Shown in pieces: positions 21,985 through 64,000 of a stretch of DNA of 64,000 nucleotides (positions within the stretch are counted from its first letter, which is position 1; the number at the start of each line of letters is the position of its first letter). Below the pieces are notes generated by a model. It saw nothing but the letters and a program-made list of their open reading frames with translations, ran no database searches and was not told the origin of the DNA. The DNA comes from Adineta ricciae (Eukaryota; Rotifera; Eurotatoria; Adinetida; Adinetidae), in NCBI GenBank assembly GCA_905250025.1, contig CAJNOJ010000368.1:27481-91480 (forward strand), in the 5' to 3' direction. A program made the position numbers and the translations under genes.

Positions 21985-21993
21985 TTCCGTATT

Positions 21994-30170: not shown

Positions 30171-30215
30171 ATTTGCTCTATAGATCACCAAAAGAAAAGT
30201 AAATGTCGAGTTTCG

Positions 30216-30223
30216 CTTATATA
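30216..30223 (-). promoter_or_regulatory. Candidate TATA box of the CHAP gene (block B)
   Basis: TATATAAG on the minus strand, 46 bases upstream of the ATG at 30170, conserved from block A. Confidence 0.35.
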
Positions 30224-31457: not shown

Positions 31458-31466
31458 TTCTGTATT

Positions 31467-34348: not shown

Positions 34349-34546
34349 TTATTCACAAATTAAATCAAATCTTTGGATTCGGTTATTCCCACCATCAGCA
34401 ATATAAAGATTTCCGTCGACATCAAAAGATAGACTGCCTGGATAGGATAGTTGGTTTGTTTTTTCTCCTTGTCCATTTCCACCAATAATTAGTTCGCCTT
34501 CCTTCGCTTTACACCAGCGCACAATTCGGTGATTGTAACAATCTGC
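34349..34546 (-). CDS. 3' fragment of the ART-NHL gene (block B end)
   Basis: TAA stop at 34349-34351, then the last NHL repeat and part of the previous one up to the gap. Bases 34356-34546 are identical to 34577-34767. Together with 24909-25134 this makes three versions of the same 3' end, as expected where two allele contigs and the shared flank were each written out. Confidence 0.8.
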   Translation of the reverse strand, partial: ADCYNHRIVRWCKAKEGELIIGGNGQGEKTNQLSYPGSLSFDVDGNLYIADGGNNRIQRFDLICE

Positions 34547-34571
34547 NNNNNNNNNNNNNNNNNNNNNNNNN
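34547..34571. other. Assembly gap of 25 n
   Basis: Sequence right of the gap restarts the ART-NHL 3' end that is already present on its left. Confidence 0.95.
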
Positions 34572-39941: not shown

Positions 39942-41225
39942 GCTGCGAACTTCATTTTGGTCATCGTCACAAACATACAGATATCCGTCTTTATCTATTG
40001 CTAAACTTGAACATCGGATGTTTTCGATGAGAATATCTTGTTGATTTCGGTCCCACCACCGAATCACTCGTCTATTCCATGAATCAGCAATGATCAAAGA
40101 ATTATTTTGTTTATCAACAATCACACCTATCGGATAGTTCAATTGATTTAATCTACTTCCTTGACCATTTTCACCTATAATAACTGTGCCTTCATGTCCA
40201 TCTGGTTTCCATTCAACAATTCGATTATTTCTCCAATCCGCTATGAAAATATGTCGACTATCATCAATGAAAATGCCTTGAGGGCCATCGAGCTGATTCA
40301 ATTCGCGTCCTCCTCCATTTCCTCCCGCCATAGTTTTTCCAGATTGTCGCCATTTGTTGAATTTAACTTCTAAATGAAAACACCTGCAACTATCAGTTTT
40401 GATCAGTGAAGAAATCAGAATCAACTGACGAGATGCTTTCGAAATAGTTGAAATTCGAGCCGAGAGAGGTTTTCTTTCTCCTGAAATTGCTAGTTTTTCC
40501 ATCAATGCAGGAAAAACATCAAAAGGTGGAGTTAATGTTTCATAAGGAGGAATTTCTTCTTTCAGATGGACAATGAATAAACCGTTTCCTGCATTCCACT
40601 TGTCCACAACTTTGAAATAAGTTCCCGGAAGAAGAAGAATTTCTTCTTCATCTTGAAAATGCGAATGAGGACGAATCGGCTTGCCATTGAAACATTCGAT
40701 ATTAAAAATCGTTCGACTTCCATGTGTTCCGATGAATGCCTCCATGACATTTAGTTTTTCTGTGCAAGAACTCAATCCCCACCAAATGTGATCTTCATCA
40801 TAGTCATTACTGAGATTTTGTCGAACACCTCGATAAACGATTCCTCGAATTGATCGCAGCTTGAATAAAGCTGTGAAAAATAGCTTCAAATAATGAAACC
40901 AAACTATTAATGACTCTCGATTTTTCGATCTAAGTCTCTCGTTCAACAATTGGTATAAGCTCGCATGAGGTTGAGACCATTGCATTGTATAAAGATGGAT
41001 TGAAGCTGATTCGTCCTGCGTGAGTGCATCCGAAGGTCTTCGACAACTTCTCAGTGCGATTTCGACCATTGTATCACAGTTGAAGAGTAAAGATTTGATT
41101 GGTTCGACTGAGGCTTTCAATGAAACAAGGGGATATTTTTCATAGTCAGCGATCGGCATTAAATATTGATCAGGTTCTTTATCTGCATCGAGAAACCGTT
41201 GAGGAATGAGTCTTTCAGCCATCAT
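39942..41225 (-). CDS. ART-NHL fusion protein, intact 5' part, cut by n
   Basis: From ATG 41225 (MMAERLIPQRFLDADKEPDQ) the frame is open for 427 residues to the n. The ART domain occupies about residues 60-215: GIVYRGVRQNL carries the NAD-binding Arg, WWGLSSCTEK the Ser region, and DEEEILLLPGTYFKV the ExE pair. The NHL part begins near residue 275 (FIADWRNNRIVEW, IIADSWNRRVIRW, VCDDDQNEV) and continues in the other copy to six repeats. The R-S-E set marks an arginine-type mono-ADP-ribosyltransferase that modifies proteins with NAD; the propeller probably chooses the target. No signal peptide is visible, so it is likely cytosolic. A 60-base in-frame GT-AG segment at about 40374-40433 could be spliced. 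This allele has neither lesion seen at 36.07-36.14 kb. Confidence 0.8.
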
Positions 41226-41824
41226 ACAACCTATGTAATGCGTTTCAGTTGCTTCAAAAGTAGCTATATAACAGTATTTACCAAATGATAAGGCTTAAGT
41301 TTTTTATAACGAACGTTGTTCTCGAAAATTCTTGACTGAAAAAATGCCTACAGTTGTGAAGTATACTCAATCAAGCAAAAAATATTTTGCAAGCACACTA
41401 TTTGCCAAAGGAAGATATAAAATAAGAGTTCTATCGCAACACATTTTATAGATGATTTTACATTTTTATTTCGTAAAGAAATGACATGTAAAATACAGCT
41501 TTGTCGTAATGTTTCTGATGAGGTCTGGTTTTTGCAAGACATAGTTGCTAGCGCACTCGGAATTGATCCGAAGATGATGAAAATATCTTGCGCAACAAAC
41601 ATGGAGTATTTGACCGGTGTCAGATGACTTACATATGACTCATTATTGGAGATGGCGATTGGCGTGTGTTCTGCGTTAAAATAAAATATAATATTAAAGA
41701 AGCACACGTTGTTCTCAGTGATGCATAACAAAACGAGCCCTTTGATAAACGAAATACCTCGCTTGTTTTTATTTTCAAAACTACATCCACGAATATCGAA
41801 TGCGAGCAGTCCCTATTCAATAAA
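41226..41824. other. Intergenic spacer
   Basis: Counterpart of 36300-36887 with many indels. No gene seen. Confidence 0.4.
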
Positions 41825-44613: not shown

Positions 44614-45249
44614 CTACGCAGTGTTCAGTAAAGGATCGTATGTGTTTTCGCTTTCGACTTTTACGTCAGTTCCAGTAACGTTCATTGCTACCAGTGGTGT
44701 TAAAAATTCTCGTGGTGAATACGATCCGTTACGCGTATTTTGTGCACCAAAATACTGAATTCGTCTCTGATGAATCATTTCGCTCAATTGTCCTGCAAAT
44801 TCTCTTGCAATCACCGTTTTAAACATAACTCTTTTCAAGCCAAAAGTGCCTCTCAATGTGATACATTTCCTTTTGCTCAAGCTCCATAAACACACGACGA
44901 GGACCATGCCGAAGACGATGAATGTTATTCCCAGTGGTCGAAGCCATTGTGTTTCGTAAATAAAACCATATATACAAGAAATGATTCCTACGAGTAATAC
45001 AGTTATCGAGAGAAACGTGAGTTTCTCATCGAGACGTGTTTCGTCGATGCGATCAATTGAATCGAGTATGATCGAAGAATAAGAAGAACGATTAACACAA
45101 CCACAAATCGTCGCTTTCCAACGAATTAAGAGCCGAAAATTAGTAACAATAACTATTGCTTTGTTTAATTGGGAGCGTTCACGACCTCTGTATTTACCCA
45201 CAATTACTTCACCACCGGACAATGCAGGAAATCTAGTATCGTTATCCAT
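44614..45249 (-). CDS. Two-TM protein with PH/GRAM-like segments
   Basis: 211 residues from MDNDTRFPALSGGEVIVGKY. The frame extends upstream to 45474, but the paralogue at 49343 also begins at MDND, so that start is chosen. Residues 10-75 (VIVGKYRGRERSQL, IVIVTNFRLLIRW, SSIILDSIDRID) have the beta-strand pattern of a PH or GRAM-like domain. A helical hairpin follows at about 82-105 (FLSITVLLVGIISCIYGFIY) and 110-130 (GITFIVFGMVLVVCLW). The next part, KCITLRGTFGLKRVMFKT then AREFAGQLSEMIHQRR, resembles the closing strands and helix of such a domain. The PH-like call is inference; the hairpin is clear. Probably a membrane-attached lipid- or protein-binding protein. Confidence 0.65.
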   Translation of the reverse strand: MDNDTRFPALSGGEVIVGKYRGRERSQLNKAIVIVTNFRLLIRWKATICGCVNRSSYSSIILDSIDRIDETRLDEKLTFLSITVLLVGIISCIYGFIYETQWLRPLGITFIVFGMVLVVCLWSLSKRKCITLRGTFGLKRVMFKTVIAREFAGQLSEMIHQRRIQYFGAQNTRNGSYSPREFLTPLVAMNVTGTDVKVESENTYDPLLNTA

Positions 45250-45492
45250 CGTCGATTTGAGCACTAATAACTGTATAAATTGAAAGTTGTATGAGTAATT
45301 GATATTCCCAATTCTTTCAATACATTTGTGCACTAGCTTATCTTCGACGTATGGATATTTATATGAGTAAGCACGGAACCTTGATCTATAACATGATCGA
45401 ATGAAGAGAAGAGAAAAGAAAAAGATAATTGTAACAACTTTCTTTGTTTGGATAATTAATTGGAGAACATACAACTTTAACTTCGCTGGGGC

Positions 45493-45501
45493 TTATATAT
45501 A
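45493..45501 (-). promoter_or_regulatory. Candidate TATA box of the two-TM gene
   Basis: Minus-strand TATATATAA about 240 bases upstream of ATG 45249, conserved at 46429-46437 in the other copy. It implies a 5' UTR of about 200 bases or an upstream intron. Confidence 0.35.
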
Positions 45502-45977
45502 GGTTCAGTCCGGGATACAATTAACTTGTAGAAGGGGTTCAGGAATTCAGATAAAGAGGGCGATATTGGAAGAAATATCTCTGGATATGTGTATGAAATC
45601 GTTGACTTGCTCCAACTTAACTTACTCGACAGCTGCTTCCTTTTTCTCACTTATTCTCCTTCCTTTTATATTTCTCCTCTCCTTCGTTTTCGTTCTTTAC
45701 ACATATTCAAGTGCTTCACATTATCTAATAGAGAAAGAAGATTCTATTGTACTACGTCTTTCTTCATTTCGAATGATCAAATTTAATCGAGTGGTGCCAT
45801 AATCATGAAATAGAAAGTGACCTGATCCAAGAATACCACGCGGCAGCATACGGCAATACGAACCTCTACAAAACTAAAGGATGTATATCCCGTTTTGTGA
45901 AAGAAAGGGTTATAGCTGCGTTAAAACTGGTTAAAGTTTGTTGGTTTGTCCAAGCCAATCAGATTGCAGCATTTCAT

Positions 45978-45978
45978 N
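45978..45978. other. Assembly join (single n)
   Basis: The 935 bases after it (45979-46913) are a second version of the 935 bases before it (45043-45977). The last 126 bases of each are identical. Confidence 0.95.
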
Positions 45979-46185
45979 GTCGATGCGATCAATTGAATCG
46001 AGTATGATCGAAGAATAAGAAGAACGATTAACACAACCACAAATCGTCGCTTTCCAACGAATTAAGAGTCGAAAATTAGTAACAATAACAATTGCTTTGT
46101 TTAATTGCGAGCGTTCACGACCTCTGTATTTACCCACAATTACTTCACCACCGGACAATGCAGGAAATCTAGTATCGTTATCCAT
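45979..46185 (-). CDS. Two-TM PH-like protein, 5' part, cut by n
   Basis: Starts MDNDTRFPALSGGEVIVGKY at 46185 and runs to IILDSIDRID where the n cuts it. With 39685-39940 it probably represents the same allele of the gene that is complete at 44614-45249. Confidence 0.75.
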
Positions 46186-49100
46186 CGTCGATCTGAGCAC
46201 TAATAACTGTATAAATCGAAAGTTGTAGGAGTAATTGATATTACTAATCCTTTCAATACATTTGTGCACTAGCTTATCTTCGACGTATGGATATTTATAT
46301 GAGCAAGAACGGAACCTTGATCTATAACATGATCGAATGAAGAGAAGAGAAAAGAAAAAGATAATTGTAACAACTTTCTTTGTTTGGATAATTAATTGGA
46401 GAACATACAACTTTAACTTCACTAGGGCTTATATATAGGTTCAGTCCGGGATACAATTAACTTGTAGAAGGGGTTCAGGAATTCAGGTAAAGAGGGCGAT
46501 ATTGGCAGAAATATCTCTGGATATGTGTATGAAATCGTTGACTTGCTCCAACTTAACTTTCTCGACAGCTGCTTCCTTTTTCTCACTTATTCTCCTTCCT
46601 TTTATATTTCTCTTCTCGTTTGTTCTCGTTCTTTACACATATTCAAGTGCTTCACATTATCTAATAAAGAAAGAAGATTCTATTGTACTACGCCTTTCTT
46701 CATCTCTAATGATCAAATTTAATCGAGTGGTGCCATAATCATGAAATAGAAAGTGACCTGATCCAAGAATACCACGCGGCAGCATATGGCAATACGAACC
46801 TCTACAAAACTAAAGGATGTATATCCCGTTTTGTGAAAGAAAGGGTTATAGCTGCGTTAAAACTGGTTAAAGTTTGTTGGTTTGTCCAAGCCAATCAGAT
46901 TGCAGCATTTCATAAATCAATGAAAACTTAACGATGTTCCTTACAAAGTGATTCTTGCAAGGTAATCGAGGTCAAGGATCTTGAATCTGATGTTAGCTTC
47001 TGGGAATTTCAATTCGCTAATTAGCTAATTAAGCAATGAAAACTTTTCGGGTTGTCGAGTGAGCGTTGATTGAAGGGTAATCGAGGTCGAGGATCACGAA
47101 TCCGAGGTTAGTATTGCTTAATTAATTATTAATTTTTCATTAACTGGCCACGACTTATTAACATCCGTTTCCAGAGTAGACCGAAGGATTTCTGCCGTCG
47201 GGAAATTCGAATTTGAGGGCGAATTTTGTTTTATTCGATGAGCCTGGGCTTATTCCTTCCTCTTTACAAACGAGATATTTTTCTTTATCTGTTCTAAAAT
47301 CTTTTGTAGAAGATGGTGAGCTGAACGCTATTCACGGACATCATGTGTACAAAGATAGCAGCTCAAGAACTTACACGAAAAGATCTAATGCATTGTACAT
47401 AATGATGTTTCTAATTGAAGAAATCCGAAAAAGTGATATGAGCTTAGTTTCATCTTTGCTTTGTAGCCTACATACATCATACTCTTTCATGGGAATTTAG
47501 TAGAAGTGGTTCGCAAAGTGATATACCCGTCGGCGGAATTCCATCTTAGTAACTATAGACGCGTGGACTATACAAACAGTATTCTGAACACATGCAACGC
47601 TATGGAGATGTTCGCTTCGAAACAAATCATACAATAAGAATTTCTTATCTAGTTTCTTTTGGTAGTCGAATGAATAGAAGATCATGACTGTCGAAGTGAC
47701 AATGAAAGAAAACCCAGTCGTTCAGTTTGAAAGTGGATAAAAAACGAAAGGAATAACAGAGACAGCATGACAACGGCTAGCCGTGAGTGACCGACCGGAG
47801 TGAGGTCGACGAACGACTAGGCGTTTAAATGTTAGATTAATCCTAAAGTGTACGCTTAGAATAACCTTGCCAGGCTTCAGATAATTTTGAAAAGGATTTG
47901 ACGAATGGATATTCCTCAATGAAAATATTCGACAAGGTATCATTTCGTTGACAGGAGAGAAAAGAATCGGTTTATCGCTGGCAGACACAGACGAATGTTC
48001 AAAATTTTCAAGTGGTCTACTGTATATCGTCCGTCTATGAGTGACTTAGTAAAGCATTTATGAAAATTTGCGTGCGCGTGATGTGAAAAAAAGAAAAACA
48101 GACGAGAAGGTCAATGGTTGGCCGTGTGACTAGCCGTTAAGCGATGCATTTTTCAGTCAACATAGATAGTGCTGGAGAATTATCCACTGACAAATGACTA
48201 ATCGGTCAGATTCCTAAAAAGACCTCTGTATCCTATTCATTCTAGTTCTAGTGTGTGGCATAGTGCCATGATTCAGTTGAGCACCAGTAGCAATCGCAGT
48301 GCGTTTTTTCTCTTTCGAAGTCCTTGAATGTGTTCAGCATCCGGAAAAGTCTTTCAGAAAAGGGTCAGCGAATCCAAAGGATGAGCGTTACTTGTACTAT
48401 AAATATCATTACTCTTTTTAAATAAAAGTTCACTGCATTAATCTCTTGTATGTAAAAGAAAAAGCTTACACAAATTTTTTTCTCGCCATGATTCTGTCAA
48501 TTAAAATAAATTTCGTTATGACAATGACCCAAATTGAAAATCAATGCCTTCCGAACACATATACTTCATTCGTCAATAGATGATTATTATAGATGCGTAA
48601 ATACATAGATTTGTTCCAACATCGCTCGCTAATCCAATAAACTAACTATATATTGACGAATTGTATCATCATAGAGCTCTATATTTTAGTTGGTGTCAAT
48701 AACAACGTCGACGTACACATTAGACTCCGCAATTTCCAATTTAAAATATGTCATTTTTTATCGTTCTTGCCCTACATCAGACGAATTATTCAAAAGTTTT
48801 TTTTTGTCAGAGTCAAGTGTAACACGCTGACGGATCGTCCTGACATACCATTGTTACCTTTTCATGTACTCTGATTACATATTTTTGGAAGTTTGATTGC
48901 CGAGGAAAAAAACAACAATTAAGATTACTCATGTTTCGTTCACATGGACAATCGTTGTGACAGAATAAACTTTACTTCAGGTGAAAGAATCCATTGACAA
49001 CAACGATAATGGATGCGCGAATCAACTTGCGTTATGAGTGATAACTATCGTGTATTTCGAGTATAGTTCAACGTCATAACGTGGCTATTTGTAAGTCTTA

Positions 49101-49342
49101 TTGAACTTGCTAAGAAATCAGATATATGGTATTGACTGTGCAAAATTGTATTTCATACATAAAGTGCACATTATGTTGAGAATCTCCATTGTGACTAGTT
49201 TTACATAATTTCTGTAAATAACGCTGATCAACATTAATATATTTCACGCTAAAAACGGGATTGATAACTATTTATTTCAAATTTTCAAAGAAGATTAAAA
49301 GTGAATCCGCACTCTAAAAAAAAGTAGATATAGTTAATTGTT
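46186..49342. other. Gene-poor interval, 3.2 kb
   Basis: 5' region of the two-TM gene, then non-coding AT-rich sequence. An open plus-strand frame at 46502-46738 (hydrophobic, also at 45566-45802) is kept between copies but so is its surroundings. A direct repeat lies at 46917-47117. No transposase, tRNA or rRNA is recognised. From 47285 onward the interval has a second version at 55752-58368. Confidence 0.4.
46917..47117. repeat. Imperfect direct repeat, period about 117 bp
   Basis: Two units, about 46917-47000 and 47034-47117. Each begins caatgaaaactt and later contains ggtaatcgaggtc-aggatc followed by gaatc-ga-gttag. They diverge at several positions and a ctaattaagc stretch separates them. 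Meaning unknown. Confidence 0.55.
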
Positions 49343-49978
49343 CTACGCCATGTTCAGTAAAGGATCGTAGATGTTTTCGTTTTCAACTTTTACGTCAGTT
49401 CCAGTGACGTCCACTGTCCCCAGTGGTGTTGAAAATTCTCGTGGTGAATACGATCTGTTATGCGCATTTTGTTCAACAAAATATTGAGTTCGTCTCTGAT
49501 GAATCATTTTGGTTAATTGTCCTGCAAATTCTCTTGCAATCGCCGTTTTAAACATAACTGTTTCCAAGCCAAACGTGCCTTTCAATGTAATATATCTCTT
49601 TTTGTTCGAGTTCCACAAACACACGACGAGGACCATGCTGAAGACGATGAATGTTATTCCCAGTGGTCGAAGCCATTGTGTTTCGTAAATAAAGCCACAT
49701 ATACAAGAAATGATTCCTACGAGTAATATAGATATCGAGAGAAACGTGAGATTCTCCTCAAGACGTGTTTCGTCGATGCGATCAATTGAATCGAGTATGA
49801 TCGAAGAATAAGAAGAACGATTAAAACAACCACAAATCGTCGCTTTCCAACGAATTAAGAGTCGAAAATTAGTAACAATAACTATTGCTTTGTTTAATTG
49901 AGAACGTTCATGACCTTCGTATTTACCCACAATTATTTCACTGTCAGACAATGCAGGAAAACTAGTATCGTTGTCCAT
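49343..49978 (-). CDS. Two-TM PH-like protein, second paralogue
   Basis: 211 residues, same length as the protein at 44614-45249, beginning MDNDTSFPALSDSEIIVGKY. The PH/GRAM-like segments and the membrane hairpin (FLSISILLVGIISCICGFIY, GITFIVFSMVLVVCLW) are kept. Differences cluster in the C-terminal third (EQNAHNRSYSPREFSTPLGT). It is a local paralogue rather than an allele, because each of the two genes also has its own second version. Its partial allele is at 57773-58368. Confidence 0.65.
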   Translation of the reverse strand: MDNDTSFPALSDSEIIVGKYEGHERSQLNKAIVIVTNFRLLIRWKATICGCFNRSSYSSIILDSIDRIDETRLEENLTFLSISILLVGIISCICGFIYETQWLRPLGITFIVFSMVLVVCLWNSNKKRYITLKGTFGLETVMFKTAIAREFAGQLTKMIHQRRTQYFVEQNAHNRSYSPREFSTPLGTVDVTGTDVKVENENIYDPLLNMA

Positions 49979-51186
49979 CGGTAATCTGAGTACTAATGAC
50001 TGTATAAATCGAAAGTTGTATGAGTAATTGATATTGCCAATTCTTTCAATACATTTGTGTACTAGTTTATCTTCGACGTATGGATATTTATATGAGTAAG
50101 AACGGAACCTTGATCTATAACATGATCGAATGAAGAGAAAAAGAACAAAGTCAGGTGCGGATTATCTCCCACATGCGTCGCTGCTACTTCGTGATGAATA
50201 GAATAAGAGCAGCGAACATAAGTCGTGACCGTAATGTCTGATAATTTTAGTTCGACGAGCAGTTGGAGTCAAATGAGAATGTACGTGCACTTTGTAATGA
50301 TTTGTATGGAAGACGTGTTATCATCTATGACAGTACAATTTCGGTTATTTCTTGTAACGAAGAATGGCAACTTTTATATACAAAAATATACGTATTTAAA
50401 TATACAACCAAAAAGAAAGGATCAGAAGAACTACGACGAACGTGTAGATGTTATCTACACAGATATTGCTAAACGCTGATTTTTTTACAGTCGTCTGTAT
50501 TTTTCTCAGTTAAGCATGTATATCTTAGTTAAAAGCGAAAGAATATGTTTGCTCGTTCAGTGTATTCTTTATTTAACTGTTACTTGCTTAATGGTGATAC
50601 ATTTCGGAGTTCGGATAGAGTTATCCCTACGTCTCTATTGGCTTTTCGTCTGTCGAATCTATCAGTGGCTGATTAAATTTTGTCAGCTAAATCGTGTAGG
50701 ATTAATATCATCAGATGTTTAATACCTTGTTATTTTCGGTTTTATTTTCAGCGGTTCTGGAAATTTCCGTATTCACAATTACAAAGACTGTGTCTCTTAT
50801 GAAGTATGAGTGGTACAATTCCTCGATATATGTTGAAGTTGCTGATGAAAAGTGGTTTACTTGTGTCTGTGGTTTTGAGCTTTCTGTTAGCAAATGCGTG
50901 ATGAGTAGCAAGGCAGTAAAATAAAAAAACAAGCATAAGCGTGAAAATAAATGGAAATCATTATCAGATTGAATTTTATATTATCATTTGTTTTTCTTTT
51001 GAAACGTTCTATTTTGAAAAATTCTATATAACTACATGGCTTGTGCATATTATAAAATCATGAAAAATAAGAATATGATGATTTAATACTAAGTAACACT
51101 AAAAGGTTCGAGTAAGAATTTATTCTCTGTTTTCATCTTCTTGTAGACAGGATCTAAACTAGGGAGCGTATGTTATATCTAAGTGT
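49979..51186. other. Intergenic spacer, 1.2 kb
   Basis: The first 150 bases resemble the 5' region of the other two-TM gene. The rest has only short frames with no recognisable motif. Confidence 0.4.
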
Positions 51187-54100
51187 TCATTTCAATTGTT
51201 GTGCTGGTACACCTGACCAATCCGTGTTAAATGGCAGTTCATCGTTCTTCATTACTAATGTGTACGGCAAAAGTCGATTTTGCCCATGAAGAATTGCGCC
51301 GGAAAGCACCATCGAGTAGCTCATAAGTACCGTCGATTGATGCACAGTAGCGAATGCTAATTTGAGGATGCGCTGCTCGAATGTATGACACTGAAGTAGT
51401 ACAAAAGTCAAAATAGAATAAATAAGACAATAAAATTGATCAGAATCTTGAGGACGTTAGTATATACGTAGATGAAAAATAGCAACTACACTCATACTCT
51501 CACGGGAACCTACAGTCACGGTGCCTACGTTAAAAGCTATGTATCTCTACCATAGGATGAAAGTCTAACTCAACGACTCCAAGTGTGCAGCACCATTGAA
51601 ATTTACCTGAATCGAGGCCTCCATATGGAACCGAACATGATCGTCGATAAAGACAAGTTGAGGGTCAGTAAGACAGTCAATATCAAACAGAATAACATCA
51701 CTTGCGATTCGAGCGCCCAATCCACGAAAGAGAAAAACCAGAAGCTGTGTTCGTGCCAATAATGGACATATCAATATCTTAAAGTCGATAAGGAACGCGC
51801 TAAGAAAGTATTGAGTGGTCGTCATAACGTCGGAGAAAGTGAAAGTGGTGCTGGTTCGTTCAACAAAAGCTGAATAACGATACACTGCACAAAAGAAAAC
51901 TGCATGCACAAGCGGCGCAACAGTAATTGGCAGTAACACGTAGATGCTAACGAACACAAATTTACCAATTAAAAAAAATACGGAAGTCTGTATGAGGTGG
52001 TAAATCAGTGACGAATCACGTAATAACGATTTGTGGTCTATTGGTATTTGCTGAGCCCGATGGAATGGCATTTGTTGGCCAGGTATACCGAGCAGTATGA
52101 TGTTTGAAGCAAGGCCATCGGTTTTTCTCGTAACTAGAGTAAAGTTACCTACCGTTATGTTCGATGCAAGATGTGCACCTGGTATGAGCGTACATCCATT
52201 GCCTAAATTTGTGTCAGAGCCAACATGAATAGAATCGATACAGCAGTCATGTTCGTGTGCCATTTCAAATGGAGCAATCATTACTTTGTTGAAGGTTGTT
52301 GCACCACGTCTAGCTGTAAACAGATTCGATGGAAAATACAAAAAGGTATGAAATTCAGCTAGTTTTACATCATCTTCAATATGTCCTCCAAGCCAACGAA
52401 GAATATAGACCGAAAATATACTATACTTAGGAATGAATGCGAATGACCAATAGAATGTTGATACGATGAGCCGACGCAGCCATATCTTGTGCAAATAATA
52501 ATAAGAATTAAGTGAATATTGTCCAGGTACAGCATGGCCTACGACGAACTTTAGTAAGACCAAAGAAACAAATAGACTAACGAAAATCCAAAAGAGCCAA
52601 GTCAGAGCAAGTTGAACAGATAACGGCGCAAATGAAATAGCTCGACATTGATACACACGATACGTTAACGCGAGCAATATATAATGAATTAGCAAAACGC
52701 TCACTACACACGAAAACTGATAGAGACGTTGTTCTTGTGATAGTATTCGGTTCTCACTGAATATACACTTATGTGGCGCCGTCACATGACCCGCGATTGC
52801 CGACATGGGCTCGATGCAAACATAATCGTCGATATTTACCCTTTCGTAAAGAACGCAGCGCACGCCGATCGAACAATATGATCCAATCGAGATCGGGTAA
52901 AGTTTGTACGTGCGATCATAGAAGGATAAACTCGAAAGTATTGTTTCATTACCAATGACTGTCGAACCTCCTACTTCAAGCAGCCAAGGAGCATCTATTC
53001 GTGTTGTATATATATGACAATGGTGACCAATGTGCGCCCCACAAAGTCGAAGGCATGAATTGTAGAGCGAAGTGCCTACTAAATGCTGTAACCAGTAACA
53101 ATTGTTAATCGACCATAGCCTATCTAAGAACCACCAGCTGTAATAGCTCCAAGAATAGAGCTCATCGGTTGTCCCAATAACTGACCAAAACTGGCAAAAC
53201 AAACGTTGACATACGACATAGCATAGTAGGTGAACGATTGGAACAAGAAAGATTGCTAATGATGAATTAAGTTGACAAAGAAATAATATTGGACTGAGCC
53301 ATTGCACAGCGAGCAACAGCACTCCAATGGTTTCAATACACAATGACGGTTTCAATCGACAATGGCAATCGTCATCATTTGATTGCATTGCTGCTGGAAT
53401 GTCCAATTTCTCCTCTCGGTCAGCTAACAAGCGTTCAAGAGCATGCGCAAGTTGTCGTACTGTAGGATTTTCGAACAAAACTCCAATTTGAACTTTAGGG
53501 TAAATCCGTTTTCTAATAAGTGATAAAGCCTGAATAACATCTAGTGATGTGCCACCGATTTGTCTGAAAGATACATCTAAACTTAGTGATTGAGCATGAA
53601 ATGCTTGTGTGAAAATAGCATAGACTTCTTGTCCTAAGGGTGATAACGTTGATTGCTCGACAGAACTCGTATTGTTTGAAACAGCAGGTATGATAGGTGT
53701 TGGAAGGGATTTCCGATCTATCTTTCCATTGTTATTCAATGGTAATTGTTCCAATATGACGAAAAAAGAGGGATGCATGAACGGCGGTAGATGCGATCGA
53801 CAATGCTGTTGTAATTGCTCTTCTGTAGCATTCAAACTTTGAACGTAAGCTACAATATGTTCATTCCACTTAACGACCACGCAGGCGACGACGCCAGTAT
53901 CAAGCAAACACTTTTCTATTTCACAAAGCTCGATACGTTGTCCACGCAATTTGATTTGATAATCCTTACGACCAAGATAATGTAAATAACCGCTGTTGTC
54001 CATCTGAACGAGATCACCTGTCCGATAAAATGGTTCACCATCGATGTTTACTAATGCATTTTTTGTCAAATCATCCCGACCCAAATAACCGGCAAACACG

Positions 54101-55750
54101 CCTACGCCTCCCACTAACAGTTCGCCCACTTGCTCAGTAGTAATCAACTGTTGAAATTCGTCGACGACGACACACTGATAGTTTGGCAGCGGTTGACCGA
54201 TTGGAATACTTTTTCTGTCTGACTGTCTATTCACTAAATGGTATGTTGCATCAATTGTGGTCTCGGCAGGACCATAATGATTCCATATTCGACAGGTTTT
54301 CGGAAGTTGACTCACCATAAGGTCCACTAATCTTACAGAGAGAGCTTCACCTAGAACAGTTACAAGCAGACAATATCAGCGCAAATACTAATCTTAGCTA
54401 CTTACCACTACTGCAGATTGATTGAAATGTCTTTCCAACTGCTGATAAATGCTCTTCTTTCAAAAAGGTAAATATACTTTGCAGTAGAGAGGGTACGACT
54501 TGCATGTATGTTATTTGTTTTCTATTGAAAATATCAGCCATATATTCAAGATCTAAGATTCCATCTGGATGAAGCATAACCAAGGTAGCACCGACGATCA
54601 ATGTTCCAATGAGATCTTTAACATGAATGTCAAACGAGCAACGAGCCATTTGAAGTATAATATCATTCTTGCTAAAACTTCCAACTTCGATCATTGAATC
54701 TATACTTGAGCAAAAATTACGATGTCGTACTTGTACCTGAATGGAATAAAATTAATGTAGCATGTTATTTCTTTTTCTCGAGACAGCTTTCGTAACATAC
54801 CGCTTTTGGTACTCCTGTAGAACCACTCGTGAAGATGACGTAGGCTATGCTGTCAGGAGTTATCAAACAGTCAGGCAGTTGATTGACGGTCGCTATACCG
54901 GCACTGAAGTCAGCATTGACTGCATTGTCAACGTTAAATACAGTGCCATCGACCTGAACTTTGCTATGCGTCAAATTGTGAACAAGAATTAGACGACTTT
55001 TAGTTTCTTTAATCAGTATGTGAAATCGTTGTGGGGGCCAATCAGGAGAGAGTGGACAATACACAGCACCAACCATTTCAATTGCCATTGCACCAATGAC
55101 CTACGTCAAAAAGAAAAAAAAGCCGGCTATCACTGCTAAATACCTCATTTTTCAAGTTTACCATGGATATACTGCGTTCCATGCATTGACAGATAATTTT
55201 ACCAGGAAGAACATTGTATCTATTCAATAAGCTTAGGCCGATTAGTTGAACATAATACAAAAGCTCAGCGTATGTGAGGCATTGTTCATCCAGCTCGACA
55301 GCAATTTTTTGCGGATTATGTGCAGCCTTTTCGTTGAATCTTTCGAAAATAGTCTTAGATGTCAACGCCTTCTCTTCACATTGCCTTCTATTTAATTCAT
55401 GAATTAACTCCGCTTCTCTCGGGAGAATTATGGACATTTTGTACAATGGCGATTTTGACCATTCGTTCGAAGAAAGGAACAACTGTTTAATGAACCTTGA
55501 AAAACGCCGGCTTATTCTGTCTACAGTTCCTTGATCAAATAAATCTTTCGAACAGACTAATGAACATGTCATCGCATTGTTCACAGCTGATCCATCATGA
55601 ACAATCGTGCACATAAAATCAAATTTAGCCACATGCTCGCTTCGCTCCCACGATACTCGATCAACATCAGCTCCAGCGAAATCCACTCGATCAGTAACAT
55701 CACACAATGTTATGTAATCAAACATGATCTCCAGAAATGGCACGGGTGAT
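51187..55750 (-). CDS. NRPS final module: C-domain end, A, PCP and Pls-like terminal domain
   Basis: Minus-strand exons 55750-55162, 55100-54801, 54736-54406, 54350-51607 and 51390-51187; introns of 61, 64, 55 and 216 bp. After the end of a condensation domain comes an adenylation domain with FTSGSTGVPKA (A3), WNHYGPAETTID (A5), FYRTGDLV (A7), LRGQRIEL (A8) and NNNGKIDRK (A10), which activates an amino acid as AMP ester. A carrier domain has FRQIGGTSLDVIQ, whose Ser takes the phosphopantetheine arm. About 700 further residues hold several TM helices and hexapeptide-type repeats (VGGSTVIGNETILSS; LGNGCTLIPGAHLASN). This layout is that of the terminal domain of Pls-like synthetases. No thioesterase is present. 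The last exon (HTFEQRILKLAF to WSGVPAQQLK) is joined by the 216-bp intron, phase 0. The 5' part continues at 58370. Confidence 0.8.
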
Positions 55751-55751
55751 N
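55751..55751. other. Assembly join (single n) inside the NRPS
   Basis: The NRPS reading frame stops here and resumes at 58596; bases 55525-55750 equal 58370-58595. Confidence 0.95.
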
Positions 55752-58368
55752 TTATCTGTTCTAAAATCTTTTGTAGAAGATGGTGAGCTGAACGCTATTC
55801 ACGGACGTCATGTGTACAAAGATAGTAGCTCAAGAACTTACACGAAAAGATCTAATGCATTGTACATAATGATGATTCTAAATTGAAGAAATCCGAAAAA
55901 GTGATATGAGCTTAGTATTATCTTTGCTTTGTAGGTTACATACGTCATGTCTTTCCATGGGAATTTAGTAGAAGTAGTTCGCAAAGTGATATACCCGTCG
56001 GCGGAATTCCATCTTAGGAACTATAGACGCGTGGACTATACAAACAGTATTCTGAACACATGCAACGCTATGGAGATGTTCGTTTCGAAGCAAATCATAC
56101 ATTAAGAATTTCTTATCTAGTTTCTTTTGGTAGTCGAATGAATAGAAGATCATGACTGTCGAAGCGACAATAAAAGAAGACTCAATCGTTCAGTTTGAAA
56201 ATCTATCAAAGGCGACAGGAATAAAAGCGACAGCATGGCAACGACTAGGTGTTTAAATGCTAGATTAATCCTAAAGTGTACGCTTAGAATAACCTTGCCA
56301 GGCTTCAGATAATTTTGAAAGGGATTTGACGAATGGATATTCCTCAATGGAAATATTCGACAAGGTATCATTTTGTTGACAGGAGAGAAAAGAATCGGGT
56401 TATCGCTGGAAGACACAGGCGAATGTTCAAATTTTTCAAGTAGTCTACTGTATATCATCTGTCTATGAGTGACTTAGTAAAGCATTTATGAAAATTTCCA
56501 TGCGCGTGATATGAAAATAGAAAAATAGATGACACAGGTCAATGGTTGGCCGTGAGTGGCCGTCTGACTAGCCGTTGAGCGATGAACTTTTCAGTCAATA
56601 TAGTTAGTGTTGGAGAATTATTCACTGACAAATGGCTAATCGGTCTGCTTTCTAAAAAGACCTCTGTATCCTATTCACTGTAGTGTGTGACATAGTGCTA
56701 TGATTCAGTTGAGTACTAGTAGCAATCGCAGTGCGTTTTTTCTCTTTCAGAGTCTCTGAATGTGTTCAACATTAGGAAAAGTCTTTCAGAAAAGGGTCAG
56801 CGAATCCGAAGGATGAGCGTTACTTCTACTATAAGTATCATTACTCTTTTTAAATAAAAGTTCACTGCATTAATCCCTTCTATGTAAAAGAAAAAACCTA
56901 CACAAAATTTTTTCTCGCCATGATTCTGTCAATTAAAAAAGATTTCGTTATGACAATGACCCAAATTGAAAATCAATGCCTTCCGAATACATATACTTCA
57001 TTCGTCAATAGACGGTTATTATAGATGCGCAAATACATAGATTTGTTCCAACATCGTTCGCTACTCCAATAAACTAACTATATATTGACGAATTGTATCA
57101 TCATAGAGCGCTATATTTTAGTTGGTGTCAATAACAACGTCGACGCACACATTAGACTCCGCAATTTCCAGTTTAAAATATGTCATTTTATCGTTCTTGT
57201 CCTACATCAGACGAATTATTCAAAAATTTTTTTGTCAGAGTCAAGTGTAACACGCTGACGGATCGTCCTGGCATACCATTGTTAGTTTTTCATGTACTCT
57301 GATTACATATTTTTTAAGTTTGATTGCCGAGGAAAGAAACGACAATTAAGATTACTCATATTTCTTTCACATGAACAATCTTTGTGACAGAATGAACTTT
57401 ACTTCAGGTAAAAGAATCCATTGACAACAACGAGAATGGATGCGCGAATCAACTTGCGTTATGAGTGATAACTATCGTGTATTTCGAGTATAGTTCAACG
57501 TCATAACGTGGCTATTTGTAAGTCTCTTATTGAACTTGCTAAGAAATCAGATATATGGTATTGACTGTGCAAAATTGTATTTCATACATAAAGTCCACAT
57601 TATGTTGAGAATCTCCATTGTGACTAGTTTTACATAATTTCTGTGAATAACGCTGATCAACATTAATAAATTTCACGCTAAAAATGGGATTGATAACTGT
57701 TTATTTCAAATTTTCAAAAAAGATTAAATGTGAATCCGCACTCTCAAAAAAAAGTAGATATAGTTAATTGTTCTACGCAATGTTCAATAAAGGATCGTAG
57801 ATGTTTTCGTTTTCAACTTTTACGTCAGTTCCAGTGACGTCCACTGTCCCCAGTGGTGTTGAAAATTCTCGTGGTGAATACGATCTGTTATGCGCACTTT
57901 GTTCAACAAAATATTGAGTTCGTCTCTGATGAATCATTTTGCTCAATTGTCCTGCAAATTCTCTTGCAATCGCCGTTTTAAACATAACTGTCTCCAAGCC
58001 AAACGTGCCTCTCAATGTAATATATTTTTTTTTGTTCGAGTTCCATAAACACACGACGAGGATCATGCTGAAGACGATGAATGTTATTCCCAGTGGTCGA
58101 AGCCATTGTGTTTCGTAAATAAAGCCACATATACAAGAAATGAGTCCTACGAGTAATATAGATATCGAGAGAAATGTGAGATTCTCATCGAGACGTGTTT
58201 CGTCGATGCGATCAATTGAATCGAGTATGATCGAAGAATAAGAAGAACGATTAACACAACCACAAATCGTCGCTTTCCAACGAATTAAGAGTCGAAAATT
58301 AGTAACAATAACAATTGCTTTGGTTAATTGAGAACGTTCATGACCTTCGTATTTACCCACAATTATTT
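55752..58368. repeat. Second version of the 47285-49938 segment, misplaced within the NRPS
   Basis: Co-linear with 47285-49938 throughout, with scattered substitutions and indels (2617 against 2654 bases). Largely non-coding. It contains the partial two-TM gene at 57773-58368. It lies between two pieces of NRPS exon that overlap each other by 226 identical bases, so in the genome it belongs beside the 47-50 kb region as its allele. Confidence 0.85.
57773..58368 (-). CDS. Two-TM PH-like protein, second paralogue, partial allele
   Basis: Residues from IIVGKYEGHERSQL to YDPLLNIA; the first 13 or so residues are beyond the n. Close to 49343-49978. The frame appears to run on into NRPS sequence through the n, which is a chimera. 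Confidence 0.8.
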
Positions 58369-58369
58369 N
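58369..58369. other. Assembly join (single n)
   Basis: Returns to NRPS sequence; the next 226 bases repeat 55525-55750. Confidence 0.95.
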
Positions 58370-59649
58370 AGTTCCTTGATCAAATAAATCTTTCGAACAG
58401 ACTAATGAACATGTCATCGCATTGTTCACAGCTGATCCATCATGAACAATCGTGCACATAAAATCAAATTTAGCCACATGCTCGCTTCGCTCCCACGATA
58501 CTCGATCAACATCAGCTCCAGCGAAATCCACTCGATCAGTAACATCACACAATGTTATGTAATCAAACATGATCTCCAGAAATGGCACGGGTGATGACTT
58601 CTGATAGTTCATATCGGCAAGGATGTGTTGAAGAGGATAATGTGTATGTTCGAGAATCGCTAAGCATTGCTGCCGAACATGTTCGACTAGTCGAACAAAT
58701 GTTTCACATGGATCGAGTCGCATTCGATAAGGCAGTGTGGCAGCAAACATGCCTATCAATTGTCGCACTTCACTTCGATATCGATTTGCACTGATACAAG
58801 TCACACACAAGTCACTTTGACCATTGGACAGTTTGAACAGAAATGCATAGAATGTGGCAAGACCCAACTGAAATGGTGTCACTTCGTGTTCGGAAGCGAA
58901 TGCGAGAAACGACGCGCACAGATCACCATCAAATGTGAATTCAGCTGAGTATACACCACTCGAACGTTCCGTCTCATGAAGACGATGTCGATCGACCGGG
59001 AGTGCCACATGATATTCGCTATCATAATCATCGAGCTGAGCACGCCAGAAGTCACGCGATGCTCTCATATCCATCTGACGCTCGTGTGTGGAATAGTCTA
59101 TGTACTGCAGTGTGTCGGGTTCGATGGGAAGTGCTCGATTCGTATTGTAAGCAAGACACAGGTCATGAATGAAGAGTTCAGTCGAGATGCGATCTGTGGC
59201 CACATGGTGGAAAACAAACACGAGCAGATCACGTGGCTTGATATGATCATCATTGGCAATGTTTGATGGTGAGTGATGTCGAAGAATCTCATAGTGAAAA
59301 ACGCGAGCAGCCGATAAGTCGAACAAGTTCGAACTCGTGGTGAGCGTCTGAAGAAGAGTGTGCAGTTGTTCGTCAGTGTGAAATATCTGTTCGTGAGGAA
59401 CGATGAAGAGTTGTTGAGTGTTGATGATATGTTGGAAAAGTATGGCTTGATTTGTATCGAAAAGAAGAGAAGTACGTAGAACGGAGTGTTTGTCAAGAAG
59501 TGATTTCAATGCTTGATGGAGACGAGCTTTTGACAATGAGCCATGTTTAATTTGTAAAACTAGTAGTTCATTGTAGATGGCATCATTAGTAGTGGTAGAT
59601 CGAAGTTGTTCGTGAAGATAGATGCGTTCCTGTGCGAATGATGCAGGTC
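58370..59649 (-). CDS. NRPS final module: condensation domain
   Basis: Most of a condensation domain. It opens PASFAQERIYLHEQLRS directly after a TTAG splice acceptor at 59650-59651, so the ATG-containing stretch further upstream is probably intron. The acyl-transfer motif reads FHHVATDRIS: both His and the Asp of HHxxxDG are kept, but the final Gly is Arg. Later C-domain segments are RDFWRAQLDDY, FYAFLFKLSNGQSDLCV and IGMFAATLPYRM. C domains form the peptide bond between donor and acceptor carrier domains. Joining 59649-58596 to 55750-55162 gives 1643 bases, which fits the split codon at the start and ends in phase 0, so the two parts are one exon. Confidence 0.8.
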
Positions 59650-59778
59650 CTAAATGATCAAATATATAAGATTGAATGAGAACATAATTATGTAGCAATG
59701 CTTCTGTCAATGAGTGATGCAGAGTTTTTTGGCTGCACGAAGTTCATAATATAGACTTATATGACCAATTCTTCATGG

Positions 59779-59779
59779 N
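59779..59779. other. Assembly join (single n)
   Basis: Bases 59780-59900 repeat 59558-59678 exactly (121 bases), then diverge. Confidence 0.95.
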
Positions 59780-59871
59780 AACTAGTAGTTCATTGTAGAT
59801 GGCATCATTAGTAGTGGTAGATCGAAGTTGTTCGTGAAGATAGATGCGTTCCTGTGCGAATGATGCAGGTC
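59780..59871 (-). CDS. NRPS condensation-domain start, repeated
   Basis: Same first codons of the final-module C domain (PASFAQERIYLHEQLRS) with the same splice acceptor (TTAG before 59871). It is the overlap between two contigs and lies at the end of the 408-bp intron that follows the upstream module. Confidence 0.75.
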
Positions 59872-60279
59872 CTAAATGATCAAATATATAAGATTGAATG
59901 GTGAGAAGCATTATATAAAGGTGAGCTTGAACGTGTTCGTTATTTGATTAGGTGACAGTAGAATAGATGGCAAATTATGATTTATCTAGGATGTATTCAA
60001 AGAACTCGATACAAACTTCTGCAATTATGTTGTGAGTTTGAACTAGTCAATTGTGCATGTGAGAACGTATCAATTAAGGATATTAGTCGGTTTTTTGAAG
60101 AATGAATCCAGTCGATATAGAACGAATGCCAAACTCACAAGTATAGTCACATTTTGACCATGTTAGAGCGTGCACTATAATTCTCTTTTTTCCTACTCAG
60201 AATATATGCCTATTAAGTTAGATCTTCTTCGATCGTGTCTAACAATTATCACATGTTTGCCATTAAGACAACCCATTAC
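59872..60279 (-). other. Probable 408-bp intron between NRPS modules
   Basis: Donor GTAATG at 60279 follows LNLTEG of the upstream PCP linker; acceptor TTAG precedes PASFAQERI. Both sides are phase 1 and the joined codon is Gly. Without splicing, the upstream frame would end four residues later without any release domain. If not spliced, the upstream module would be a separate gene. Confidence 0.6.
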
Positions 60280-63200
60280 CTTCGGTTAGATTTAGAATTT
60301 GCCAAGATGTCAACTGATTTTCCACTGGCTTGATCGCCTGCAGTATATCTGCATGTTCACTTATTGTTGTATTCCGTAGGAAAGGTGCAACGGACAGAGT
60401 TTGCACGTCGAAACTGAATGCAGACTGATAACAATGGTACAGTTGAATGAGAAGAAGCGAATGGCCGCCAACGCTGAAGAAGTTTGCTAAAGTTGATATC
60501 TGTAGTCCATCACGTTGTAAAACTCTGCACCACAAACTATGAACTAGCTCTTCAGTTGGATTTCGTGGCAAACTGTGTCCCCCGATAGTGGACTGGGTTA
60601 CGGAAGATAAGTTCGGCTTTGGAAGACACTTTCGATCGACTTTTCCATTTGTATTTAACGGTATTTTATCTAATCTGATGAATACTGAAGGCACCATAAA
60701 TTCTGGCAGTTGAGAACGACAAAAATCGTGTAGCTGTCTCTCATTAATGTCACTACTTTGAACATAGGCTATCAAATAATCTTTATCCCATTTCGTGACT
60801 ACACACATGGAAATATGAAATGGAGACTCCAATATGCGTCTCTCAATCTCACCCAACTCTATGCGTTGTCCTCGTAATTTTACCTGAAAATCTTTTCGAC
60901 CAATAAAATGGAACAGACCATTCGAATCCAATTGTACGAGGTCTCCCGTGCGGTAGAACATTTCTCCATTGTTCTCTACTAATCCTTTTGCGGTCAAGTC
61001 TGCGCGTCCCAGATAGCCGGCAAAAACACCACACCCGCCTACTAGCAATTCGCCCTCCTGACCGATTGTGACGAGCTGTAGAAAATCATCGACTATTCGC
61101 GAACGATAATTTGGCAGAAGCCGTCCGATTGGTACATCATTTGCATTGCTTGCTCCATTAATCAAATGCGCCATGCAATTGATACTAGTTTCAGCAGGAC
61201 CATATGTATTCCATATTCGAACGTTATCTGGTAAATAACGTCGTATTTTGTTAATTAATGGCATTCCAAGAATGTCGCCTGAAAAGTATGTGATCGAATA
61301 GCAGGATCCCATTAAAATCGAACCTACCTCCAATATCCAGTGTGCGTAGTGTGCTTAACTTCGAATCATCACAGCTTCCAAGAAAACTTACAACGCTATC
61401 AATATAAGTCGGAACGGTTTGCATGTATGAAACTTGTTTATAGTTTAATACTTTAACTAAGTATTCTAAATACATATTGCCATGTGGACGAAGTAGCACC
61501 AGACTGGCACCACCTATTAGTGCTCCTATTGTTTCTTGCATATGTACATCGTACGAGCAATGTGCCATTTGGACGACCGTATCGTTTTCATCAAACAAAT
61601 CAATACAAATAATTGAATCAATGAAATTGACAAAATTTCGATGTCGCAGCTGAGCCTACAACAACAATTCCACTCAGATCTATATACCACTCGACTGAAT
61701 TTTTCAACTAACCGCTTTTGGAATACCGGTTGATCCACTTGTGAAAATCACATACGCAATATTCTCCTCGTTCACCTCCACACTTGACAAACGATCAATA
61801 TCGCTTCCATTATTGAATTCCTCATCATCCATCATCAGCATCTCACAAACATTAATACAAGCATCGCACTCTCTCAGCTTCTCATTTGTTATGTCATCAA
61901 TCAGAACAACACGACTTTTCGTTTCTTCGATCAACACNTTTGGAATACCGGTTGATCCACTTGTGAAAATCACATACGCAATATTCTCCTCGTTCACCTC
62001 CACACTTGACAAACGATCAATATCGCTTCCATTATTGAATTCCTCATCATCCATCATCAGCATCTCACAAACATTAATACAAGCATCGCACTCTCTCAGC
62101 TTCTCATTTGTTATGTCATCAATCAGAACAACACGACTTTTCGTTTCTTCGATCAACACTTTCAATCGTTGCTCAGGATCATAAGGTGACAAGGGACAGT
62201 ACACACCGCCAACCATTTCAATGGCCAGCATACCAATGATCTACAATCAAACATTCATTCTCATCACACATCAACAAAAGCATCTCCTCACCATCCAGAT
62301 ACTTCGCTCCACACATTGACAAATGATTTCACCAACTTTGATGTCATATCGCTTTAGCAAACGAAGAGCCAACTTCTGTGCATTGTACAACGCTTCACTG
62401 TATGTCAAACACTGTTCATCGAGTTCAACGGCCACTTTCTGCTGCAGTTCATTGGCTCTCGAAGCGAATCGATGGTGTAAACAGTCAGACGATGCGAATG
62501 ACATCTGTGTATTGTTGATCGACTGAATCAGTTGCATTTCTTCGGGCAAGATGATGGATAATTCATAGATTGACTTTGTCAAACAATCATTTGTCATGGC
62601 AAATAGTTGGTTGAGCATGACACAGTAACGTCGAGCAATGTTCTCGATAGTTCTGGCATCGAACAGATCCAGCGATGCATCGATGACGCACGACAACTGA
62701 TCAGTTGTTTTATTGTGCTCAATGTTGAATGAAAAGTCGAACTTGCTCACGATTTCGTCAGTGTCAATCTGAATCGAATGAGGAACTGGTAAGAGTGAAA
62801 CATCACCAAGTTGCACTTGAGTATTGATGCAATCGGATGAAAGCGAACGAAATTCGAAAGCTGTGTCGAGAAATCTCGGTTTGGACGCTTGAGGATGTTG
62901 AAGAAGAATGTGTTGAAGAGGAAAATATGAGTAAGTAGAAGTGCGTGTCATCAGTAGATGAACATGATTGACAAGTTGGGGAAATGGCCAATGTGGATCA
63001 AGTTGACATCGAAGAGGAATAGCATTGACAAACATTCCAACCAATGAACGAAACTCCTCTTTGTATCGTCCGTCGGTGTTCGTCACAACACACAGATCTC
63101 GTTCACCATTGGTTAATTTGAATAGAAAAGCATAGAAGGTGGATAATGCCAGACATTCGACTGTGATGTTCTTGGCGTGTGCATATGCAATGAAGGTTTG

Positions 63201-63997
63201 TGAAAGGTGTTGATCGAAGTGAAACGAAACAGTTTTGCCACGTCCTGTTCGAAACTCATCCGAGAGACGATGTCGATCGAATGGCAAAGGCATTGTTCGT
63301 TGAATGTCACAGCCACGAAGATGATTCAACCAAAAGCGACTTGCATTCTTCATTGTCATTTCTCGTTCGATGGTAGCATCTATACAAGCATATACAATTC
63401 ATTAGAAATAAGTCAAGAGAAAGAGAGTGAACTCACAATCGAGATAGCGAAGAGCTGTTTCATCATCATTCTCCAGTTGGCCAGTAGTATAAGCTCGATT
63501 GAGATCATTGAGAAATGTGTCCACAGAAGCAAAATCAAAGAGAGCATGATGAAAATTGAGAATCACTGCATCGTTCTCTTTGAGACGACCATCTAGACTG
63601 ATCTTACCGCGGTGAAGAGTGTGACAACGACAAACAAGACCACGACGAAGATCGAAATGAGTTGGGTTGCTACGTTCATCATGCATGATTGTATTCAACT
63701 GTTCATGGTTGTGAAATGTACTTTCGACATATGTGAATAGTCGTGTATGGTCTGTGGGATCGAGGACTGTTTGCATTAATAGATTGCGATCGTCGTCAAA
63801 ATTGAGTGATGTACGAAGTGATTGATGTTTGATGATGACAGATTGTAATGCTTGAAGTAAATGTGGTATTGATAAGGTTGCTGATGGTAAGATGTGATAG
63901 AGAAACGGCATATTGTAGATGGCAACTTGAGGTTTGTCTGGATCGAAACGAACCTGTTCATCTAGCCAAATGCGAGCTTGTGCATACGAAGCTGGTC
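60280..63997 (-). CDS. NRPS upstream module: C-A-PCP
   Basis: Exons 63997-63437, 63379-62292, 62240-61713, 61655-61328 and 61278-60280, with introns of 57, 51, 57 and 49 bp. The C domain begins PASYAQARIWLDEQVRF and carries NFHHALFDFAS, that is HHxxxD followed by Phe instead of Gly. The A domain has FTSGSTGIPKA (A3), WNTYGPAETSIN (A5), FYRTGDLV (A7), LRGQRIELGEIE (A8) and NTNGKVDRK (A10). The carrier has FFSVGGHSLLLIQ with its Ser. The exon at 62240-61713 includes an artificial 222-base duplication around the n at 61938; by chance it keeps the frame. The first exon starts at a splice acceptor three bases from the window edge, so the gene continues upstream, probably with more modules. It passes its product to the C domain at 58370-59649. 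Confidence 0.8.
61938..61938. other. Assembly join (single n) inside the A domain
   Basis: Bases 61939-62159 repeat 61717-61937 exactly (221 bases). Confidence 0.95.
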
Positions 63998-64000
63998 CTA

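Follow-up and report, generated by a model that had tools for sequence, protein, structure and literature searches.

A multimodular peptide synthetase gene of a bdelloid rotifer predicted to end in a divergent Pls/PosA-type membrane domain

How might a multimodular non-ribosomal peptide synthetase (NRPS) in an animal genome release its product when no thioesterase is detected in the enzyme? The question is raised by a gene of the bdelloid rotifer Adineta ricciae, located on the minus strand (64000 to 51187) of a 64,000-nucleotide stretch, here called the window, which forms the last 64 kb of the 91,480-base contig CAJNOJ010000368.1 (C368; the assembly has 130 Mb in 1,033 contigs, and other contigs and loci are given by C and L numbers). 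An earlier note made from the sequence alone had described two modules of condensation (C), adenylation (A) and peptidyl carrier protein (PCP) domains, followed by a terminal domain (Term) like that of the poly-lysine synthetase Pls. The reading that we favour, with moderate confidence, is a nuclear, intron-bearing dimodular animal NRPS whose release end is a divergent membrane domain of the Pls/PosA type, the function of that end being predicted from sequence comparison and modelling.

A dimodular gene of ten exons

Stop-to-stop frames on this strand match condensation, adenylation, carrier and terminal domains, and join into a predicted gene of 10 exons and 9 introns, all with GT...AG ends. 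In order, the introns measure 57, 51, 57, 49, 408 or 630, 61, 64, 55 and 216 nucleotides (nt), the fifth being lengthened by an assembly overlap. The joined exons amount to 8,505 nt in one frame, encoding 2,834 amino acids (aa) plus a stop without any internal stop; the remaining two frames hold 151 and 187 stops. The domain sequence is C1-A1-PCP1-C2-A2-PCP2-Term, so the nine introns, the order C-A-PCP-C-A-PCP-terminal domain and the roughly 2,833 residues of the earlier note were correct to within one residue. The parts of the gene, in the order of transcription, are as follows.

63437..63998, minus strand: exon 1, counted from the contig end; initial half of C1 (HHALFDF); starts at the splice acceptor at the contig end
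62292..63379, minus strand: exon 2; remaining half of C1, then the beginning of A1
61713..62240, minus strand: exon 3; A1 core with TSGSTG motif; assembly overlap around the N at 61938
61328..61655, minus strand: exon 4; substrate-pocket part of A1 (code DVQQDGTINK together with exon 5)
60280..61278, minus strand: exon 5; end of A1 and PCP1 (GGHS)
58370..59649, minus strand: exon 6, first contig; most of C2 (HHVATDR); 59558-59678 is repeated at 59780-59900
55752..58368, no strand: misplaced assembly block inside the C2 exon
55162..55750, minus strand: exon 6, second contig; remainder of C2 and start of A2; 55525-55750 repeats 58370-58595
54801..55100, minus strand: exon 7; A2
54406..54736, minus strand: exon 8; A2 substrate pocket (code DIKQCSHIDK together with exon 9)
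51607..54350, minus strand: exon 9; last part of A2, then PCP2 (GGTS) and the greater part of Term, comprising its three hydrophobic pairs, the first two beta-helix segments and the beginning of the third
51187..51390, minus strand: exon 10; last beta-helix segment of Term, with CHTFEQR at its start and WSGVPAQQLK plus stop at its end

Pfam searches of the ten frames returned Condensation, AMP-binding, AMP-binding_C and PP-binding and, in agreement with the earlier note, no thioesterase. Carrier sites of the form GGxS are present in both PCPs (GGHS and GGTS, respectively), as are the A-domain core motifs; with its C, A and PCP domains and their core motifs, the gene qualifies as a multimodular NRPS, encoded as a single polypeptide if the splice model holds. 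The counterparts of HHxxxDG, HHALFDF in C1 and HHVATDR in C2, retain His-His and Asp, with Gly replaced by F and R, respectively. Homologous loci support the splice sites: boundaries in the A or terminal domain are shared with C363, C43 and C615, and boundaries in the A or C domain with C363, C110, C644 and C297, though not every locus shows every site.

At its 5′ side the gene begins in the window with a splice acceptor (TAG followed by GACCAGC) that coincides with the contig end, so it is truncated and at least one exon is lost. One C1-type domain at C644 and two at C363 are preceded by an acceptor-like AG and have no carrier domain in the 150 residues upstream, whereas a carrier domain and a short intron come before each of four C2-type starts (C644, C363 and two at C297). 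From this contrast we take C1 to be the first large domain, the part of the protein lost at the 5′ end probably being small. Contig C368 also bears G-protein-coupled receptor, ubiquitin-conjugating and ADP-ribosyltransferase/NHL genes, and with such neighbours the synthetase fits an animal genome, as had been proposed.

A divergent Pls/PosA-type terminal domain

The last ~665 residues, which constitute Term, match the family profile TIGR02353 with 77.0 bits in the exon 9 frame (E = 1e-21) and 51.0 bits in the exon 10 frame (E = 7.6e-14), the comparison that the earlier note had named as a check of its Pls-like label. A profile–profile comparison with TIGR02353 gave 99.8%, with a match over 497 columns (E = 1.7e-29); homology to the Pls/PosA family extends across most of Term, with 13/13 in a separate comparison. 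Hydropathy and an AlphaFold model predict six putative membrane helices in three pairs, with a beta-helix segment after each pair, and the membrane-bound character that had been suggested is thus borne out at the level of prediction. The same arrangement, three helix pairs with a beta-helix segment behind each, has been described for the Pls/PosA terminal domain (PMC10522769). The predicted beta-helix agrees with the left-handed beta-helix acyltransferase fold, and the best Protein Data Bank (PDB) match by sequence for most of Term (606 residues) is GlmU (E = 0.016).

Exon 10 opens with CHTFEQR, corresponding to QTHLFEDR in most bacterial enzymes, the Q sitting just 5′ of the intron; after this Q-x-H stretch the window Term and the bacterial enzymes alike continue to LVMK and W.G.P. 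The His of Q-x-H is found in 8/8 covered loci of the multimodular type (C368, C509, C926, C43, C363, C615, C110 and C644), in four canonical Pls/PosA-type copies of the same genome (L009-L012) and in 10/10 distinct covered bacterial loci (of 13). This count leaves out loci in which the site is not covered (C297, C548, C145 and two at C247), matches running into the intron (L014, L016, L022 and L024) and additional matches that fall in other beta-helix segments and lack the His (L036, L040 and L042). FExR is kept less strictly, with CHTSEHR at C43 and deviations in the bacterial L043 and L044. By likeness to beta-helix acyltransferases, we propose that this His may be catalytic.

Term might instead be catalytically dead, a membrane anchor or platform only, with a separate enzyme releasing the product. 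Its strong divergence (19% identity to the canonical copies of the same genome), low TIGR02353 score and six predicted membrane helices would suit such a role. However, Q-x-H, mostly together with FExR and LVMK...W.G.P, is retained as in bacteria, and the non-synonymous substitution rate (dN) is below the synonymous rate (dS) in 26/26 computable pairs (of 28) among eight terminal-domain exons, a comparison of which only the direction is used because dS is saturated for most pairs and not computable for 2/28. We regard a dead domain as unlikely, while giving it real weight.

Substrate pockets and chain release

The earlier note had further supposed that the terminal domain takes over chain extension, possibly iteratively; this part of it is not supported, given the enzyme's own condensation domains and the make-up of both A pockets. 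The pocket codes, DVQQDGTINK for A1 and DIKQCSHIDK for A2, were mapped with GrsA numbering, position 239 corresponding to Glu221 of PosA. Applied to ordinary bacterial NRPS loci, the same mapping yields Asp-, Gly- and Val-like codes, which supports it. At position 239, A1 of the window has Q and A2 has K. The residue is Glu in 12/12 distinct bacterial Pls/PosA loci read, in 3/3 canonical copies of this genome read (L010, L011 and L013) and in 2/8 Term-adjacent A domains read (E at C110 and C297; K in the window; Q at C43, C363 and C615; R at C548; and S at C145, if that exon belongs to that A domain). The Glu221 of PosA has been tied to the cationic side chain of the substrate (PMC10522769). 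The pocket Glu of cationic homo-poly-amino-acid synthetases is therefore missing from A1 and A2, and a poly-lysine-like product was rejected as unlikely for the window gene; that reading may still apply to the relatives C110 and C297.

A true animal poly-amino-acid synthetase, in which Term iterates as in Pls/PosA to make a cationic homopolymer, would explain the homology of Term to the polymerising domain, the kept Q-x-H and the pocket Glu of C110 and C297. Delta-poly-ornithine inhibits fungi (PMC10522769), and such an antifungal product would suit rotifer defence. Besides the changed pocket, however, A2 clusters with multimodular A domains and apart from Pls A domains, and the window protein has condensation domains, which were found in 0/17 bacterial Pls-type loci in the stretch examined with a profile derived from 8 of the genome's own C domains. 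As a control on bacterial NRPS loci that profile gave a weak match (34 bits, L050, a fragment), so the argument for absence is carried by the stop-to-stop open reading frames (ORFs) of the 17 loci, which span 897-1,504 aa, those of 897 and 920 aa being shorter than the others and apparently interrupted. We assign a homopolymer synthetase a small probability.

Thioesterase matches in the genome occur at 9 places on 7 contigs and TIGR02353 matches on 16 contigs, with 0 contigs in common; no thioesterase match lies on the contigs of Term loci, where exons were searched singly, so that split thioesterases may escape. The likeliest role of Term is that of a membrane-bound domain that releases or transfers the chain by forming an amide.

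Continuity of the gene across assembly artefacts

The overlaps that the earlier note had removed prove to be assembly artefacts, comprising single-base Ns within the gene (55751, 58369, 59779 and 61938), repeated contig ends and a misplaced block. The repeats are 61717-61940 and 61939-62162 (99.6%, around the N at 61938), 59558-59678 and 59780-59900, and 55525-55750 and 58370-58595 (226 nt, 100%). The stretch separating this last pair, 55752-58368, copies 47285-49938 at 92.5%; the 226-nt end overlap and the copied interior mark it as a stray block scaffolded into the C2 exon, probably from the other haplotype. A second identical 226-nt overlap (24909-25134 and 34572-34797) lies on either side of a block that duplicates the preceding stretch. 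We interpret the break inside the C2 exon as an assembly artefact and not as a boundary between two genes.

Mis-scaffolding inside the C2 exon and around the PCP1–C2 intron could in principle have merged two genes or transcripts, C-A-PCP and C-A-PCP-Term, and C363 does have a C1-type C-A-PCP-Term stretch without a module just upstream. Yet exons 5 and 6 join in frame with GT-AG ends, and the PCP-intron-C order is also seen at C644 and C297, with no N in the stretches read, which leaves this explanation a slim chance. A decayed pseudogene, to which the replaced HHxxxDG Gly of both C domains and a C509 copy with nine in-frame stops might point, is scarcely credible against 2,834 stop-free codons, GGxS and A motifs, intact splice sites and dN below dS.

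Related loci and the origin of the modules

The 936-residue frame of the window gene matches Term genes at 12 or more further loci (at least C110, C926, C615, C297, C363, C43, C509, C548, C644, C247 (two) and C145) and, more weakly, canonical genes on C12. Nine aligned Term relatives are 31-48% identical to the window Term. The genome holds 82 C-domain matches, and 7/12 contigs with a Term gene of the window type have one (C368, C297, C363, C548, C644, C247 and C145). Canonical Pls-type genes on C12 and C383 score 545.6-558.0 bits against TIGR02353.

Intron positions connect the modules. Both A1 and A2 have sites after A-domain residues ~72, 174 and 283, and modules at C363, C297, C110 and C644 share these sites, though in some cases fewer than three of them; the final Term intron is found again at C43, C363 and C615 and close to the same place at C110 and C297. 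In an A-domain tree of 45 rows (midpoint root; matches spanning <180 query residues left out), A1, A2 and 15 other A domains of the genome form a 100/100 clade separate from bacterial NRPS and Pls/PosA rows, A2 falling inside a group of A domains directly before a Term (9 rows, 100/99) and A1 lying closest to three internal-module A domains. Three C114 rows, one of which has a very long branch, stand outside the clade with bacterial rows. The genome's canonical Pls genes join bacterial Pls, and the A domain before the window Term is of the multimodular kind. A genome-wide A-domain profile search, in which 12/236 candidates were scored, is not used for counts. Because intron sites recur between modules and the A domains form this clade, the modules probably multiplied within the animal lineage, after introns had been gained.

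A bacterial scan with the multimodular-type alignment (two short peptide patterns; 21 pattern stretches, 0 confirmed) yielded no relative of the window-type Term. The same kind of scan with the canonical alignment found one Cytophagaceae locus; among 296 genomes of its phylum, its own included, 5 have a TIGR02353 match above the cut-off (ORFs of 1,295-1,339 aa).

Several other copies were seen in the rotifer genome. L009-L012 (C383 and C12) are canonical single-module Pls/PosA-type genes, four copies having a terminal domain that scores above the cut-off, and L013 (C356) is such a copy with an in-frame TGA; by sequence, L009-L013 are candidate animal cationic homopolymer synthetases. C509:10175-11551 is an A-PCP-Term gene copy with nine in-frame stops, likely a pseudogene. 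C233:18584-30843 contains two more TIGR02353-like copies (851-aa frames), outside the places scored with the window Term gene.

A proposed route of release

In the dimodular reading, A1 and A2 would load two amino acids onto PCP1 and PCP2, and C2 would join them. C1, N-terminal and of a separate C class, might add a starter acyl group or be a degenerate leftover; PDB matches do not decide whether it is a lipid-starter C domain. The three helix pairs would hold Term in the membrane, and the beta-helix part, where the conserved His lies, would pass the PCP2-bound peptidyl thioester on to an amine nucleophile. Amide-forming, membrane-coupled release by Term would thus replace a thioesterase.

Several observations weigh against this proposal. 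The scores of the Term frames fall far below the curated TIGR02353 cut-off of 423.1 bits: the earlier Pls-like assignment holds as a relationship and fails as membership, and Term is a distant homologue of the Pls/PosA terminal domain, not a filed member of the family. The TIGR02353 profile also matches 13/14 control genomes at E <= 0.001 (1/14 at E <= 1e-20), presumably through hexapeptide repeats; since weak matches are so common, one would be insufficient alone, and it is the profile–profile result that carries weight. Foldseek against the PDB gave 17 matches at E <= 10 and 0 at E <= 0.001, with a model of middling confidence that lacks the last 67 residues. No C-domain match was found on 5/12 Term contigs (C110, C926, C615, C43 and C509), C110 being without one for 7 kb upstream, and multimodularity is thus not established family-wide. 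Finally, a C1-type domain at C363 (L030, at 85605) reads HKAFFDL, its second His changed to K; together with the HHxxxDG departures, this suggests that C1 may be inactive.

More ambitiously, such genes could form an animal class of their own, membrane-bound multimodular factories that arose by module duplication within the lineage and in which a still-iterating Pls-type domain would join module-built di- or tripeptides into sequence-defined repeat polymers delivered at the membrane. We know of no bacterium that polymerizes module-built di- or tripeptides into sequence-defined repeats, and we consider this extension improbable. Bdelloid NRPS and polyketide synthase (PKS) genes are upregulated under fungal attack (PMC11258130). 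If release proceeds as proposed above, the product expected from a multimodular line with a Pls-type end is amide-capped or delivered at a membrane and not a free or cyclized acid, which alters what chemists should seek for bdelloid NRPSs. The intron sites common to the modules, in turn, point to growth of the assembly line within an animal genome and allow module duplication to be ordered against intron gain.

Other features of the window

Transfer RNA and Rfam scans of the window gave no match, no telomere repeats were found in it, and PHROGs returned a single weak match, to a protein of unknown function. Frames at 39942-41294 and 34573-36075 encode an NAD:arginine ADP-ribosyltransferase domain with NHL repeats and are ~89% copies of one another. 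A CHAP-domain amidase-like gene at 19879-20610 (like the frame at 29350-30087) is possibly of bacterial origin. A gene family (EIIVGKYEGHERSQLNKAIVIV...) occurs in several 88-97% copies at 44617-50161 and 55752-58368, with no Pfam match in the one copy scanned (49346-50161). The block 25136-34546 is an 89-92% copy of 15578-25104, set between contig ends with 226 identical bases. After a 25-N gap (34547-34571), 34572-34767 repeats 34351-34546 at 99.5%, another overlap artefact. The duplicated genes in 15578-34797 probably represent the other haplotype rather than a tandem duplication.

Comparison with known systems

Both rotifer NRPSs and metazoan Pls-type enzymes are already in print; a multimodular line ending in a Pls-type domain is new within the literature and genomes searched. 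Many NRPS genes have been reported in bdelloid rotifers, in NRPS and PKS-NRPS clusters (PMC11258130 and PMC10531068), and the genome studied here likewise has many divergent ones, judging from its C-domain matches. A Term-like end domain was not found in the main text of either report, where 'terminal', 'hexapeptide' and 'polylysine' (PMC11258130) and 'Pls', 'transmembrane' and 'terminal domain' (PMC10531068) occur 0 times. Pls-type synthetases have been stated to occur in Metazoa in a study whose network used sequences of 1,100-1,800 residues (PMC10522769).

With Pls/PosA, the epsilon-poly-lysine and delta-poly-ornithine synthetases of TIGR02353, the window gene shares the terminal-domain family by profile comparison, a predicted layout of three helix pairs and three beta-helix segments, Q-x-H, a C-terminal A-PCP-Term and the lack of a thioesterase. 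It differs in having two C-A-PCP modules before Term, introns and no pocket Glu, and in a Term that is only 19% identical to the canonical copies of the same genome and below the family cut-off. The single-module A-PCP-Term order without a C domain, seen in the 17 bacterial loci examined, does not apply to the window gene, which encodes two C domains. The thioesterase-ended multimodular NRPSs of this genome (C114 and others) follow the same C-A-PCP module logic with another release domain, the two end types lying on separate contigs. The left-handed beta-helix acyltransferases, among them GlmU, maltose/galactoside O-acetyltransferase, Vat and LpxA/LpxD, resemble Term in their beta-helix fold and through weak sequence matches. 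These enzymes are soluble and use acyl-CoA or acyl-ACP; unlike them, Term combines three beta-helix segments in one chain with predicted membrane helices.

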